From Planctomycetota bacterium (GTDB taxonomy: Bacteria; Planctomycetota; Planctomycetia; JALXBF01), in contig JALXBF010000118.1 of NCBI GenBank assembly GCA_026991575.1, forward strand, positions 62,001-126,000: a stretch of DNA of 64,000 bases, given 5' to 3'. How positions within the stretch are numbered: position 1 is the first letter of the stretch; every line of letters starts with the position of its first letter. The notes under the pieces were generated by a model. That model saw only the letters and a program-made list of their open reading frames with translations, was not told where the DNA came from and did not search any database. This document shows positions 39,031 through 46,107 of the stretch, piece by piece. The position numbers and the translations under genes were made by a program.

Positions 39031-42000
39031 ATGAGCAAGACCGTAGCAGCCGAGAGATTCCTCATGCCAAGACGTGTCCTACCCGTCCTCGGAACAATCG
39101 GCCTTTCCCTGCTTCTTTTGTTTGGCTGGAGCTATGCCCAACGCGGAACCATCGCCCCCCGCGGAGTGCAGTGGATTTGGACCGACGAGGGGGAACCTTT
39201 GAAACAGGCCCCGACCGGGTTGCGGTTCTTCCGCGCCTTGTTTGAAGTGGACCGTGATCCGGCAGAAGTGAAACTTTACCTCGTGTGCGACGATGCGTTC
39301 GTTGCGTACGTCAACGGAGTGCGCGTCGGCAGCTCCCGCAGCTGGCAAAGCGGATCCGTGTTCGACATCACGGACAAGGTGCGCATCGGACGCAACGCGC
39401 TTGCGGTAGAGGCGACCAACCGTGGCGGGCCGGCCGGCCTGGCAGGTTGGGTCTTTGTTCGGACAAAGCCGGGCAACCACTACGTCTATCCGACCAATCA
39501 GTCGTGGCGTTGGGCCACCGAGCCGTCCGAAGGGTGGATGATGCCCGAGTTCCCCCACGACCGCTGGCGACCGGTGAAGGTGCTCGGAGCGTTCGGTACG
39601 GTGGGACCATGGGGCGAAATAGGCTTCGGGACGGAGGGGCGGTTCCGGGCGCTGGAGGGGTTCCACGTCGAGATGGTTGCCGACCCGGAGCTGACCGGAT
39701 CCATTATCGCCTTTGGCTTCGATACACAGGGCTTGCCGCTACTTTCGGTTGAACGCGGCCCGATCATCCGGCTCCATGACGACGACGGCGATGGCGTCTA
39801 CGAACGCAAGTCCGTCGTCTGCGACCAGGTCAGCTACTGCCAGGGGCTGCTGGCGTACGATCCGAAGACGTACTACTTTGTCGGCATGCAGCAGCAGGGC
39901 AAGAAAGTTGTCACCGGGCTGTGGCGGGGCCTGGACGAGGATGAAGATGGCAAAGTGGACAAGGTGGAGTTGCTGCACCAGGTGCGGGGTCGAATCGCGG
40001 AGCACGGTCCTCACGCGATCCTCGTCGGACCGGATGGTTATCTCTACTTCGTCACCGGCAATCACGCGTGGGTGAACCTGGACCCGCCTGCCCACTCGCC
40101 GGTGCGCATGCTGTACGAAGGGGTGCTCTTGCCTCGCTACGAGGATGCACACGGCCATGCTCGGGGGATTCGCGTGCCGGGTGGCACGATCTGGCGGCTG
40201 GATCCGGACGCTCGCGACTGGACGCTCGAGACCGCCGGGTTCCGCAACGAGTACGACATCGGTTTCAACCGCGTCGGTGAGGTGTTCACCTTTGACAGCG
40301 ACATGGAGTGGGACGAGGGCTTGCCGTGGTATCGGCCCGTGCGCGTCAATCATTGCCCCTCGGGCGCGGAATTCGGCTGGCGCAGCGGCTGCGCGAAGTG
40401 GCCGCCTTACTACGTGGACAGTTTGCCCGCGACCGTGGACATCGGCCGCGGCTCTCCTACGGGTGTGGTCTTCTACCACCACACCGTTTACCCGGCCAGA
40501 TTCCACGACGCGTTCTTCATTGCTGACTGGTCGTACGGCCGGATTTTTGCCGTTTCCTTCAAACGCCAGGGGGCTTCGTACTCGGGCGAAGCGGAGCTCT
40601 TCCTGCTGGGCAAACCGCTGAACGTGACCGACCTGGACGTTGGCCCAGATGGGTTCCTGTACTTCACCACGGGGGGGCGAGGTACAGAGGGGGGCCTGTA
40701 CCGCGTGGTCTACGGCGAGGCCGGTTCGGCTGGCCCGCCGCTGGCGGACCTCGAGGGTGAAGAGGCCGTGCTTGCGGCCCTGCAACAGCCGCAGCCCTGG
40801 TCAGCCTGGGGACGCGAACGCGTACGGAAGCTGAAGGCGGCCGCGGGTGACGCCTGGCAGCGCGTTCTGAACCGCGTCATCCTGGACGAAGAGGAGGGCA
40901 CCGGCACACGCGTGCTGGCACTGTCGTATCTGCTGCAGTTCGGCCCCGAGCCCGACATGAAGCTGACCCGCCGGTTGATGCGCAGCAGCGATCGGGAACT
41001 GCGTGCGTGGGCAGCCGTGCTGATTGCGCGGTTAGGCCCGAAGGATGCGGAGAAACTTCTAGGCGAACTGCTTCAGGACTCGGAGCCGATTGTGCAGCGT
41101 CGGGCCATCGAGGGCTTCCTGCGGCTGACCCGCCCGGTCCCCAAACCGTTGCTCCGACCTGTGCTCGCCAGCACCGACCGCTTCCTGCGGTTTGCCGGTC
41201 TGCTGGCCCTGGAGCGGACCGATCCGGAAAGCTGGGCTGATTGGCTCGATGAACAAGACCGCCGCGTTGCCATCATGGCCGTCGTGGCGCTGAACCGGGG
41301 CGGTGCCGTGGCTCGCTCTGATCACTGGACCAACCAGGCGTTCAGCACCTGCTGGCGGCTGTTGCAGACGACCACCGGTGCCGATGATGAGCTGGAGGTC
41401 CTGCGCGGCATCCAGTTGTCGCTGATTAACTCCGAAAAGCGGACTCGCCCCGAACAACTCGTGGAGCAGATCGCAGAAGAGATCCTGCGCCGCTTCCCGT
41501 CCGGTGACTGGAGGGTTAACCGTGAATACGCTCGGCTATTGGCTTACCTTGAACCGGACGGCACGGTGGAGAAGCTGGTCGAGGCGCTGGAGTCGTGCGG
41601 CACGGTGGACCAGGCAGACCGGGCCCAGGCGATCCACTACGCCCGCTGTCTGGTTGCGTGCGAGAAGGGATGGACGGGGCAGTTGCGAAGGCGATATCTG
41701 AAGTGGTTCGATGTGTCGGCTGATTGGGACGGCGGTCACAGTTACCGTGGCTACCTGATGAACTTCCTGCGGGATTTCCTCCGGCGAGTGCCCGAAGAGG
41801 AAAAGCTTGCGCTCGTGGCCGACGCCGCACAGTACCGGCTGGCCGCGCTGGAGATCGTCCGGCGGCTTGATCAGAACAACGGAGCGGCGTACGTGCCGCT
41901 GCTGGACGAGGCGCTGCGCGAAGGCACGCTGCCGAGAGAGGATGTGCTGCTGGCACTGGGAAGAGTCCGTCAGCCAGAGGCAGAGCGGATCGTGTTGCAC

Positions 42001-42855
42001 TGGTACCGCAGCCATCCTGAGGATCGACCGGCAGCCTTGATCGCACTGGCCAACTATGCCAAGCAGGCGTACCGGGAGATTTTCCTGCAAGGACTCAAGC
42101 ACGACGATCCACGCGTGGTCCGTGCCGCGCTACAGGGGCTGCGTCGGTGCCAGCCGGAAGGACCGGACGACTACCGGGCGGTCCTCGAAACCGCACTCCG
42201 GTTGGGCCAACCGGTCGGCATGGCGGCCGTCCATACATTGCGTCGCTGGACCGGTAAGGACTTCGGGGCGAAGCCGGAGCAGTGGCGCAACGAATTGGAT
42301 CAGTTCCTGGCATGGTACCGCGAAACGTATCCCAATGCCGCACCGGTGGGTGGCTCCGGTAAGTACCGTGAGTGGACGCTGGAAGAATTGCTGGAGGCCG
42401 TGGAGCAGCACATCGGGTCCGCCGATCCGGAACGGGGCAAGCTGGTGTTCATGAAGGCCAGTTGCGTGAACTGCCACAAGGTCGGCTCATTCGGTAAAGG
42501 GATCGGCCCGGACCTGAGCACCCTGGGCAATCGTTTCTCGCGGAAGGACATCTTGGAGGCAATACTCACCCCCTCGAAAACGATTTCCGATCAATACAAA
42601 ACCTACACCATCCTGACAACTCGCGGCCAGATCATTAACGGCATGCGAGCCCCGGATGAGGATGGGAAGATCGTGCTGCTGCTCTCTGATGCCACCACCG
42701 TCAGGATTCCGAAGGACGAAGTCGAGGAGATTGTGGAATCGTCGGTGAGCATTATGCCGGACGGCCTGCTGAACACGCTGAGTGCTCAGGAGATCGCTGA
42801 CCTGGTGGCGTTCCTCGAAGCCGCGCAGGTGGAGACCGCTTCGGGCAGTCGGTAG
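39031..42855 (+). CDS. PVC-type membrane-bound dehydrogenase/cytochrome c fusion
   Basis: 1274-residue exported protein of a type common in Planctomycetes. A signal peptide (VLGTIGLSLLLLFGWSYA) precedes an N-terminal jelly-roll-like domain. A six-bladed propeller of the PQQ-sugar-dehydrogenase/membrane-bound dehydrogenase type follows (about residues 220-570; GPDGYLYFVTGNHAW, DLDVGPDGFLYFTTGG). HEAT-like repeats (about 600-1100) and a C-terminal c-type cytochrome domain with CVNCH complete it; distal Met ligands are in the region to residue 1274. Proposed to oxidise a sugar-type substrate and pass electrons to heme. Start ATG 39031 or 39064. The selenoprotein gene follows 15 nt after its stop. 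Confidence 0.9.
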   Translation: MSKTVAAERFLMPRRVLPVLGTIGLSLLLLFGWSYAQRGTIAPRGVQWIWTDEGEPLKQAPTGLRFFRALFEVDRDPAEVKLYLVCDDAFVAYVNGVRVGSSRSWQSGSVFDITDKVRIGRNALAVEATNRGGPAGLAGWVFVRTKPGNHYVYPTNQSWRWATEPSEGWMMPEFPHDRWRPVKVLGAFGTVGPWGEIGFGTEGRFRALEGFHVEMVADPELTGSIIAFGFDTQGLPLLSVERGPIIRLHDDDGDGVYERKSVVCDQVSYCQGLLAYDPKTYYFVGMQQQGKKVVTGLWRGLDEDEDGKVDKVELLHQVRGRIAEHGPHAILVGPDGYLYFVTGNHAWVNLDPPAHSPVRMLYEGVLLPRYEDAHGHARGIRVPGGTIWRLDPDARDWTLETAGFRNEYDIGFNRVGEVFTFDSDMEWDEGLPWYRPVRVNHCPSGAEFGWRSGCAKWPPYYVDSLPATVDIGRGSPTGVVFYHHTVYPARFHDAFFIADWSYGRIFAVSFKRQGASYSGEAELFLLGKPLNVTDLDVGPDGFLYFTTGGRGTEGGLYRVVYGEAGSAGPPLADLEGEEAVLAALQQPQPWSAWGRERVRKLKAAAGDAWQRVLNRVILDEEEGTGTRVLALSYLLQFGPEPDMKLTRRLMRSSDRELRAWAAVLIARLGPKDAEKLLGELLQDSEPIVQRRAIEGFLRLTRPVPKPLLRPVLASTDRFLRFAGLLALERTDPESWADWLDEQDRRVAIMAVVALNRGGAVARSDHWTNQAFSTCWRLLQTTTGADDELEVLRGIQLSLINSEKRTRPEQLVEQIAEEILRRFPSGDWRVNREYARLLAYLEPDGTVEKLVEALESCGTVDQADRAQAIHYARCLVACEKGWTGQLRRRYLKWFDVSADWDGGHSYRGYLMNFLRDFLRRVPEEEKLALVADAAQYRLAALEIVRRLDQNNGAAYVPLLDEALREGTLPREDVLLALGRVRQPEAERIVLHWYRSHPEDRPAALIALANYAKQAYREIFLQGLKHDDPRVVRAALQGLRRCQPEGPDDYRAVLETALRLGQPVGMAAVHTLRRWTGKDFGAKPEQWRNELDQFLAWYRETYPNAAPVGGSGKYREWTLEELLEAVEQHIGSADPERGKLVFMKASCVNCHKVGSFGKGIGPDLSTLGNRFSRKDILEAILTPSKTISDQYKTYTILTTRGQIINGMRAPDEDGKIVLLLSDATTVRIPKDEVEEIVESSVSIMPDGLLNTLSAQEIADLVAFLEAAQVETASGSR

Positions 42856-42870
42856 AGGTGAGGCGCAGTC

Positions 42871-43221
42871 ATGGCGAAGACGATCAACTGGTACTACCAC
42901 CGACCCGGGTGAAGGACCTGCGGTCGAGCGCAGGAGTTTCTTGCGCGCAAGGCTGTACGCATCAAACAGGAAGTCAGCGCAACAAAGGACAAGCAGGGAC
43001 CAGAGAAGGCCCTGGAGCTAGCTCGGGCCGCGAACAAAGTCATCGTGGCTCGGGGCAAGAAGGTTCATGAGTTCAACATGAAGAAGGACCCGCCCGATGA
43101 CGAAACGCTGCTGAAGCACATGCTGGGGCCCACCGGTAACCTGCGCGCCCCCACGATGGTCATTGGCAAGACGGTGTACGTCGGATTCGAGGAAGAATCG
43201 CTCTCGAAGTTACTGGGCTAA
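42871..43221 (+). CDS. ArsC-like thioredoxin-fold selenoprotein (in-frame UGA)
   Basis: The frame runs ATG 42871 to TAA 43219-43221 with a single TGA at 42910-42912. Read as Sec the product is 116 residues. Residues 4-17 read TINWYYHRPG-U-RTC, the U-x-x-C redox motif of the 'ArsC family (seleno)protein' group known in planctomycetes; the Cys form is G-C-x-x-C. A cis-Pro-type LRAPTMVIG (residues 91-99) near the C-terminus completes the thioredoxin/glutaredoxin fold. Its start follows a GAGGTGAGG ribosome binding site 15 nt after the cytochrome gene, so it is probably in that operon. A one-base-change pseudogene is unlikely because the frame is otherwise intact and the SECIS candidate fits. Confidence 0.88.
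42928..42946 (+). promoter_or_regulatory. Candidate bacterial SECIS hairpin of the ArsC-like gene
   Basis: Stem GCGCA (42928-42932) pairs with TGCGC (42942-42946), loop GGAGTTTCT (42933-42941, 9 nt). The loop starts 21 nt past the UGA and begins with GG, meeting the bacterial SECIS pattern. An alternative hairpin (CCTGCG-GTCGAG-CGCAGG, 42917-42934) has its loop only 11 nt past the UGA and fits less well. By-eye folding only. Confidence 0.6.
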
Positions 43222-43251: not shown

Positions 43252-46107
43252 ATGAGTTGGTACCAGGCAACGCTTAGCTTCACGCTGGCCAGCCTGCTGA
43301 TGGCGACCGCCATGCCAGCAGACGGCCCGGTGGGTGTCCGCATCGAGTTCGGTGTCGGAGCGAAGCAGACCGCAGTGTGGGCGGGCCGCGTTGTGCGACC
43401 ACAACAGGCGGTCCAGCGAGTGACCCCATGGCGGTTCCTCAACGGGCGGGTTCAGCCCGGCCAGAACGCGTGGACGACGAGGACCGTGCTGCTGCCGGCG
43501 CCCTTCGAGCGGAACCCGATCCAGGGGGCCAATTTTCCCCAGCCCAGGCGGGTGCCGTGGTCAGCCGGCGTCGACGTGGTGTTGAAAGACAGCGCCGATG
43601 TCCTGCGTGTCAGCTGGCAGAAGCCCGAGGGCATCGCCCCGCTCGAGGTGCCGCTCAACAGGCTGCGCTACGGCCAGGTGCAGTCGGTTGGAGAACACGT
43701 CGCGCTGCACCGCTTCGTGCCCTACGTTGCCGAAACGGCGCCAGAGGACGGGGTCCACGATGACCTGCCGTCCATGGCCATCGCGCCGGACGGTGTGCTG
43801 TGGCTTGCCTGGCGGCGGTATCAGCAAGCAGCGGACCGGATCGTGGTCGCAACGGTCGATCCACGCACCGGGCGGTTGAGTCCCCCCGAATGGCGCTCGA
43901 ACGCGGGGGACCACGGAGGCCCTGCGATCGCTGTTGACGGCAGCGGGACCGTGTGGGTCGCGTACGCTGCGCAGCACAACGGCAACTGGGACATTTATGT
44001 CGTGAGCCGACGGGAGGGGCGCTGGAGCAGACCGCAGCGCGTCTCGGACCATCCGCAACCCGACCTGCATCCGGTACTCGTCGGTCTGACATCCGGCGCA
44101 GCGTTGGCCTGGCAGGGCTTCCGCGAAGGTCAGAGCGATATCTTCTACACCGAAATCACGGTCAGCGGCGAACTCCGCGGCGTGCACCGGCTCAGCCCCT
44201 CGCGGCGGAACGACTGGTTCCCCGCGATCGCTACCGACGGCCGCGGGACGGTGTACGTCGCGTGGGACAGCTACGACGCAGGCAACTACGACGTGCTCTT
44301 GCGCCCGGTAGTCGGCGGCAAGCCGGGAAAGCTGGTTGCTGTGGCTTCGACCGACCTGTTTGAGGCGAATGCATCGGTTGCCTGCGACCGTGACGGCGGT
44401 GTCTGGGTTGCTTACGACGAGGGAACGAAGGCCTGGGGCAAGGACTACGGCTTCTGGTGGTGGTATCTGGACTGGCCGCGAGGGACTCGGCTGTATGAGC
44501 GGCGGGTGTTGCGGATCCGCAAGATCGAAGGTGACAGATCGTTGGCTGTGCAGCCCGACCTCGTGGGCTCGCTGCCCAGAGCGATGCGGGAGTATTCTGA
44601 GTACCCGCAGCTCTGCATCGACCAGCGGAATCGTCTCTGGGTCGTGTTCCGCCACCGCACGGCGCGCAGCCCTCGGGCCGACGGCTGGGCCGCCGCCGGC
44701 TGGTGGGAACCCTACCTGTGCTTCTGGGATGGCAAGCGGTGGAGCGACCCGATACCGCTTGAGCGTTCGCTCGGTCGCCAGGACATGCGGACCGCTCTGG
44801 TCGCGGGCGGCAACCGCCTGTGGTTGGCCTGGGCCACCGACAGCCGCACGGCTCGCCAGCCGACAACGGGAGGCCACCTCAAGATACAGGTGGGACAGGT
44901 TTCGCTGGATCAGATTGCCGCTCTGCCAGGCAGCGGACTGCCGCCCGTCGGGCGTTACAGACGTCCGGAGCTGGCGGACGAGTCGATCCGCAACGTCCAT
45001 CCCAACGAGGAAGCCGATCTGGAGCGGATCCGGTCGTACCGAGTCGACTACCGGGGCAAGCAGCTGGCGATTTATCGCGGAGACCTGCACCGGCACACGG
45101 ACATTTCGTTTGACGGTGTCGGCGACGGGAGTCTGACGGATTTCTACCGTTACGCGCTGGATGCGGCCAGCCTGGACTACGTCCTCGTCGGTGACCACGG
45201 CATGGGACACGACCGTGAGTATCCGTGGTGGCGCACGCAGAAGTCGAACGACATGTACTTCGTGAGCGGCAGGTTTGTGCCGCTGTACGGTTACGAACGG
45301 TCGATTCCCTATCCGTGGGGCCACCGGAACATTATCTGGACTAAACGAGGTTTCCGAACATTTCCGATGACCAGGGATCCGCGGGCCAAACGGCGGCGGC
45401 CGGCACCGGACGACACGCTCCAGCTGTATCGCGAGATCCGACGCACCGGCGGTATCGTCACGCTGCACACGTCAGCAACCAACCAGGGCACCAACTGGGA
45501 GACGGGCTACGATCCTGAGCTGGAACCCGTCGTTGAGCTGTTCCAGGGCTATCACACTTCGTACGAAGGGCGACGCCAGCCGCTGGCGGTAGACGAAAAC
45601 ACGCCGATTCTGCACGGGCCGTTCAAGCCGGATGGCTACGTGTGGCACGCGTTGGAGAAGGGCTACTGGCTGGGCTTCCAGGCATCCAGCGACCACATCG
45701 CGACGCACAACAGCTACGCGTGCGTGCTGGCCGAGGAGTTCTCGCGGGAAGGTCTGGTTGAAGCCATGAAGGCCCGCCACACGTACGCTGCCACGGACAA
45801 TATCGTGCTGGAGTTTCGATCAGGTGATGCGCTGATGGGCGATCGGGTGCGGTACCGCGGTGGCCCGGTCCGCCTCTCAGCCCGCATCTGGGGTACCGCG
45901 CCGATCGCGTTCGTGGAGGTGGTGCGCAACGCCAGTGTCGTCTACTCGATGAAAGTCGACGGGGCCAGTCAGGTGGAGTTTGCCTGGACCGACACCGCCG
46001 TGCCTGACCGCAGCTTCAACTACTACTACGTGCGGGTGATTCAGGTCGACCGCAACGTCGCGTGGGCCTCTCCGATCTGGTTCGTCAAGGACGACCTGCG
46101 GCGCTAA
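43252..46107 (+). CDS. Large exported PHP/DUF3604-like protein with BNR-type repeats
   Basis: 951-residue protein with an N-terminal hydrophobic signal (MSWYQATLSFTLASLL). Residues about 170-560 form repeated beta-blade motifs (APDGVLWLAWRRY, DGSGTVWVAYAA, DGRGTVYVAWDSYD) like sialidase/BNR or TolB-type propellers. The C-terminal half contains the metal-type motif DLHRHTDISFDG (DxHxHTxxS), VLVGDHG, and later LHTSATNQGTNW and ASSDHIATHNSYA, which are the metal ligands of PHP/DUF3604-type phosphoesterase-like domains. The function is likely hydrolytic and extracytoplasmic, but the substrate is unknown. It starts 30 nt after the selenoprotein gene. Confidence 0.82.
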   Translation: MSWYQATLSFTLASLLMATAMPADGPVGVRIEFGVGAKQTAVWAGRVVRPQQAVQRVTPWRFLNGRVQPGQNAWTTRTVLLPAPFERNPIQGANFPQPRRVPWSAGVDVVLKDSADVLRVSWQKPEGIAPLEVPLNRLRYGQVQSVGEHVALHRFVPYVAETAPEDGVHDDLPSMAIAPDGVLWLAWRRYQQAADRIVVATVDPRTGRLSPPEWRSNAGDHGGPAIAVDGSGTVWVAYAAQHNGNWDIYVVSRREGRWSRPQRVSDHPQPDLHPVLVGLTSGAALAWQGFREGQSDIFYTEITVSGELRGVHRLSPSRRNDWFPAIATDGRGTVYVAWDSYDAGNYDVLLRPVVGGKPGKLVAVASTDLFEANASVACDRDGGVWVAYDEGTKAWGKDYGFWWWYLDWPRGTRLYERRVLRIRKIEGDRSLAVQPDLVGSLPRAMREYSEYPQLCIDQRNRLWVVFRHRTARSPRADGWAAAGWWEPYLCFWDGKRWSDPIPLERSLGRQDMRTALVAGGNRLWLAWATDSRTARQPTTGGHLKIQVGQVSLDQIAALPGSGLPPVGRYRRPELADESIRNVHPNEEADLERIRSYRVDYRGKQLAIYRGDLHRHTDISFDGVGDGSLTDFYRYALDAASLDYVLVGDHGMGHDREYPWWRTQKSNDMYFVSGRFVPLYGYERSIPYPWGHRNIIWTKRGFRTFPMTRDPRAKRRRPAPDDTLQLYREIRRTGGIVTLHTSATNQGTNWETGYDPELEPVVELFQGYHTSYEGRRQPLAVDENTPILHGPFKPDGYVWHALEKGYWLGFQASSDHIATHNSYACVLAEEFSREGLVEAMKARHTYAATDNIVLEFRSGDALMGDRVRYRGGPVRLSARIWGTAPIAFVEVVRNASVVYSMKVDGASQVEFAWTDTAVPDRSFNYYYVRVIQVDRNVAWASPIWFVKDDLRR

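Follow-up and report, generated by a model that had tools for sequence, protein, structure and literature searches.

An NF041106-family ArsC-like protein with a predicted selenocysteine at an in-frame TGA in a Planctomycetota genome

A short reading frame in a Planctomycetota genome is interrupted by a TGA, which raises the question whether this codon is decoded as selenocysteine (Sec) and which function the product may have. The analysed window is a stretch of 64,000 nucleotides (contig JALXBF010000118.1, positions 62,001 to 126,000) of a draft genome of 4.96 Mb in 191 contigs, which is 97.8% complete. The gene lies on the forward strand at 42871-43221 and ends with the stop codon TAA (43219-43221). 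A Shine-Dalgarno-like sequence, AGGTGAGG (42856-42863, forward strand), is located 7 nt upstream of the ATG. No ordinary ORF of at least 80 amino acids covers this region on the forward strand. With TGA translated as Sec, a product of 116 residues is obtained that starts MAKTINWYYHRPGURTCGRAQ...GPTGNLRAPTMVIGKTVYVGF... and contains a single TGA, at codon 14 (42910-42912, forward strand). Both motifs described in the initial annotation are present: G-U-R-T-C around residue 14 and R-A-P-T-M at residues 92-96. The Cys17 codon TGC (42919-42921, forward strand) encodes the probable resolving cysteine of U-x-x-C. Pro94 (43150-43152, forward strand) belongs to the motif GPTGNLRAP and is invariant in the alignments; its cis geometry is assigned by analogy with the fold family. 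By itself, the reading frame argues weakly for a gene, as the window contains 265 ORFs of at least 90 amino acids that read through one TGA. Homology lifts the gene beyond chance, by the score against the NF041106 model and by the in-frame TGA that 134 of 150 family members have at the equivalent codon. Translation and homology thus confirm the 116-residue gene that had been seen on read-through of the TGA.

The protein matches NCBIfam NF041106 (ArsC_rel_Se_1), 'ArsC family (seleno)protein', over model positions 1-106 of 107 with 133.2 bits (cut-off 85; 4.9e-39). This score, well above the cut-off, agrees with the proposed membership in a known planctomycete family. The Pfam ArsC model PF03960 is matched with 25.8 bits at a cut-off of 24. 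Among 392 genomes sampled from the phylum, 80 have an NF041106 member above the cut-off. GTDB genomes were scanned as well and yielded at least 581 relatives, of which 80 were kept; these are mostly from Planctomycetota, with others from Acidobacteriota and further groups, and share at most 61% identity with the window protein. Viral relatives were searched with a single pattern, without a match. One family member is on L119, with the record title Klebsiella pneumoniae MAG; it groups with a MAG labelled Proteobacteria, and the Klebsiella label is probably wrong.

The column of residue 14 was read in 150 extracted members: 134 have TGA, 15 have Cys and one has Asp. The arginine at position -3 and the cysteine at position +3 from this column are invariant (Cys in 150/150). 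Relatives without Cys at residue 14 had been named as evidence against a selenoprotein; 149 of 150 carry Sec or Cys, and the exception is the Asp paralogue. This paralogue (L070:4983-5330, genome G045) has the motif SSDATC, is accompanied by a Sec copy in the same genome (L082) and is possibly a non-redox derivative. On a tree built with the Sec/Cys column masked, the Sec/Cys label requires 8 changes, at least 7 of them forced by well-supported branches, with the Asp paralogue scored as Cys. Such repeated exchange is the pattern expected for a redox-active residue.

The genome encodes the machinery for Sec insertion, the absence of which would have spoken against the gene. SelD, selB, selA and a tRNA-Sec with the anticodon TCA form one cluster (C184:25019-29790; L194:4999-9792, G000:C184). 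The selD of this cluster has its own in-frame TGA, and SelD is itself a selenoprotein (CAGUAGK). Across the phylum sample, selA was present in 66 of 70 genomes with a Sec form versus 2 of 10 with a Cys form (Fisher p 7e-7, uncorrected for relatedness). The selA match is missing in four Sec-form drafts, and most Cys-form genomes (8/10) are without selA.

A hairpin, GCGCAGGAGUUUCUUGCGC, follows the UGA at a distance of 16-34 nt (42928-42946, forward strand), with the upper stem GCGCAGGA/UCUUGCGC. With its GG at 21-22 nt it matches the SECIS-like stem-loop of the initial annotation, for which a GG at the loop start and a distance of 21 nt from the UGA had been given. Folding of the window sequence forms all seven stem pairs; an alternative fold has equal energy, and on its own the hairpin is not significant (z -1.5, 17/200 shuffles equally good). 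Support comes from the family level, by covariation and codon selection. The covariation was analysed in 89 Sec-form sequences carrying an A-Q/R-x-F motif. The stem positions pair in 88.4% of cells, and double changes occur in 55 cells versus 19.7 in shuffles, with none of 500 shuffles as high. The strongest pair links codon +6, at its third base, with codon +11, at its middle base (G-C 61, C-G 13, U-A 8, U-G 5, A-U 1). The 18 nt of the hairpin were also shuffled synonymously, in a test designed after the alignment had been inspected. Mean z was -1.87 for 97 Sec loci with the A-Q/R-x-F motif versus 0.02 for 15 Cys forms; the same test elsewhere in the gene gave -0.02 and 0.00. The leucine codon +10 is CTT in 68 of 95 sequences, and other leucine codons are CTT in 82 of 951. 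Given the covariation over 89 sequences, the codon choice and its absence from Cys forms, the hairpin is very probably the bacterial SECIS.

The 37 Sec forms outside the A-Q/R-x-F group have a weak 18-nt signal (z -0.60). In many of these motif-less forms, the signal over 39 nt is stronger than over 18 nt, so their SECIS is probably larger, shifted or otherwise shaped. An earlier synonymous-shuffle test over 39 nt separated Sec forms (z -1.8) poorly from Cys forms (z -1.2), because four Cys forms have kept strong structures; for the A-Q/R-x-F group the 18-nt test gives the cleaner separation. The strong RNA structure of the four Cys forms (L026, L040, L041 and L044) lies within the 39 nt past the Cys codon. 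They belong to one family (f2), and their genomes have no selA match above the family's cut-off. The structure is perhaps a relic SECIS.

The AlphaFold model, computed with 74 sequences, has a mean pLDDT of 92.3. In structure it comes closest to Spx, YffB and ArsC-related proteins, with Z-scores up to 8.9; for Spx (3ihq), the VIA Z is 8.9 with an rmsd of 2.7 over 88 residues. Scores near 8-9 are modest. The sequence profile gave the ArsC-related 2m46 (2.9e-10) and Spx (1.6e-8) as its best matches. Spx (PDB 3ihq, 6ghb, 1z3e) shares the predicted fold, a C-x-x-C near the N-terminus and the cis-proline, but the window protein has Sec in place of the first cysteine and alanine in place of the arginine that precedes the cis-proline. 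YffB (1rw1) and the ArsC-related 2m46 and 3gkx resemble it in predicted fold and length; it differs by the Sec in the active site and by lacking an arginine before the cis-proline (aligned for 2m46). The UXX-star glutaredoxin-like selenoproteins NF041212 and NF041211 are likewise small and glutaredoxin-like and give weak matches. These scores are well under the cut-offs, and the models, of about 70 positions, are without the longer middle part of the NF041106 family.

Four other readings of the locus were weighed. A pseudogene, a sequencing error or decoding of TGA as another amino acid would explain a frame broken by a single TGA. The comparative pattern contradicts this reading and makes it extremely unlikely: 134 members, drawn from many assemblies, share the TGA at this codon, the alternatives there are Cys and not Trp, the genome has the Sec machinery and the hairpin is under selection. 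It is improbable that the protein is a true reductase of arsenate or another oxyanion in which Sec replaces Cys12 of ArsC. The Pfam ArsC score is above its cut-off, the E. coli ArsC Cys12 aligns with Sec14 and the literature uses the name 'arsenate reductase-like'; nucleophile position, fold class and Pfam family are shared. The functional residues of E. coli ArsC are Cys12 (the nucleophile), Arg94 (catalytic) and Arg107, and the two arginines speak against this reading. The site of Arg94, before the cis-proline, carries Ala in 146 of the 150 members and Ser in the other 4, and Arg107 falls on Phe106 when counted from the cis-proline. The comparison is based on the cis-proline motif and on HMMER alignments to 2m46 and Spx, as MAFFT addition misaligned the C-terminal half of E. 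coli ArsC and hhalign ended before the cis-proline. Moreover, ArsC has C-x-x-S where the NF041106 family has U/C-x-x-C. Homologues of E. coli ArsR or ArsB were absent from the window and from the neighbouring genes, although linked ars genes are common rather than strictly required. With the key arginine replaced in 150/150, the ArsC reductase reading was rejected and arsenate reduction by the window protein is unlikely. It is also very unlikely that the protein is a redox-sensing regulator of the Spx kind, with RNA polymerase as its partner and the Sec-Cys pair as the switch. Spx is the best fold match and among the best by sequence, and it also has a C-x-x-C switch. Yet the Spx/MgsR model TIGR01617 scores 26.6 bits, far under its cut-off of 75.05, and the arginine preceding the cis-proline in the Spx alignment is alanine in the window protein. 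The scattered gene contexts of the family are neutral toward this reading. The broader idea that the family is an Spx-kind selenium redox switch with a Sec14-Cys17 sensor, controlling transcription in Planctomycetota, is a long shot.

A service to the surrounding genes, as the initial annotation had suggested for a cytochrome operon, is also very doubtful. Upstream, at 39031-42855 on the forward strand, is a PVC-type cytochrome c/HEAT protein of 1274 amino acids (TIGR02603, 110 bits; TIGR02604 under the cut-off). Downstream, at 43252-46107 on the same strand, follows a CehA/McbA-like (PHP) metallohydrolase with a propeller, of 951 amino acids (NF038032, 76.4 bits, cut-off 80). Both are placed outside the selenoprotein system. 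The spacing had been given correctly, with 15 nt between the cytochrome stop at 42855 and the gene and 30 nt from the gene to the ATG at 43252. The same strand and the short gaps make co-transcription plausible in the window genome. The neighbours are not conserved, however. When both neighbours were compared by Blast with the ORFs flanking 149 other loci, the downstream gene had no homologue and a single weak cytochrome-domain match appeared; the flanks covered up to 8 kb, with 1.5 kb for 30 loci and less at contig ends. Where sampled genomes have both the selenoprotein gene and a homologue of the downstream gene, the two are on different contigs. The downstream gene has three paralogues in the window genome, none of them with a cytochrome homologue alongside. 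Both flanking proteins look exported, and the selenoprotein has no visible signal peptide. The proposed redox service therefore found no support, and the check for operon conservation turned out negative. The 149 loci are from genomes outside the window genome's own family, so a coupling confined to the window lineage may exist.

Other gene contexts were seen elsewhere in the family. In one clade (L030, L036 and about 15 relatives), a rhomboid gene is located about 15 nt downstream of the selenoprotein gene and a gene for a periplasmic-binding protein about 86 nt upstream. This context is fixed and could hint at the function in this clade. The three paralogues of the propeller/PHP protein (43252-46107) share about 40% identity with it and are located on contigs C1, C14 and C156 of the window genome (G000). 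Few genomes of the phylum sample have a homologue, 14 of 199 with the window genome included. One homologue, L199 (G081:C21:15082-17490), carries a single in-frame TGA, which is an error, decay or another selenoprotein.

The selenoprotein family is already described, and the window gene is an added member. ArsC-like selenoproteins were noted as early as 2006 (PMC1794560). An 'Arsenate reductase 2' with UxxC was predicted from ocean metagenomes (Zhang and Gladyshev 2008; PMC2398784) and is probably the NF041106 family. A 2026 review lists the 'arsenate reductase-like protein', NF041106, with UxxC, among the high-confidence predicted selenoproteins and attributes the family to the Global Ocean Sampling study of 2008 (PMC13188914). 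The window protein agrees with the described family in its whole-length match, the U-x-x-C and the in-frame UGA, and otherwise shows ordinary sequence divergence. Two observations were not found in the papers examined. One is the hairpin, which covaries between a synonymous and an amino-acid-changing site and which the Cys forms have lost; the other is the at least seven Sec/Cys exchanges, with most Cys forms in genomes that lack selA.

The gene almost certainly encodes a real selenoprotein with Sec14 inserted, and the product is probably a cytoplasmic thioredoxin-fold selenol/thiol oxidoreductase of the Spx/YffB/ArsC type. Insertion of Sec at UGA 42910 is predicted with near certainty. The oxidoreductase chemistry is likely, as a prediction argued from fold and motif only, and since no signal peptide is visible, the protein is predicted to be cytoplasmic. 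During translation, SelB and Sec-tRNA would bind the hairpin 16-34 nt past the UGA and insert selenocysteine as residue 14. In the folded cytoplasmic protein, Sec14 may attack an oxidised substrate such as a disulfide, a sulfenic acid or similar. Cys17 would resolve the Sec14 intermediate, and a cellular reductant would regenerate the Sec14-Cys17 active site. The covariation and the Sec/Cys exchanges support the use of Sec and leave the function unsettled. Since such genes are cut or dropped by standard gene callers, this instance deserves annotation.
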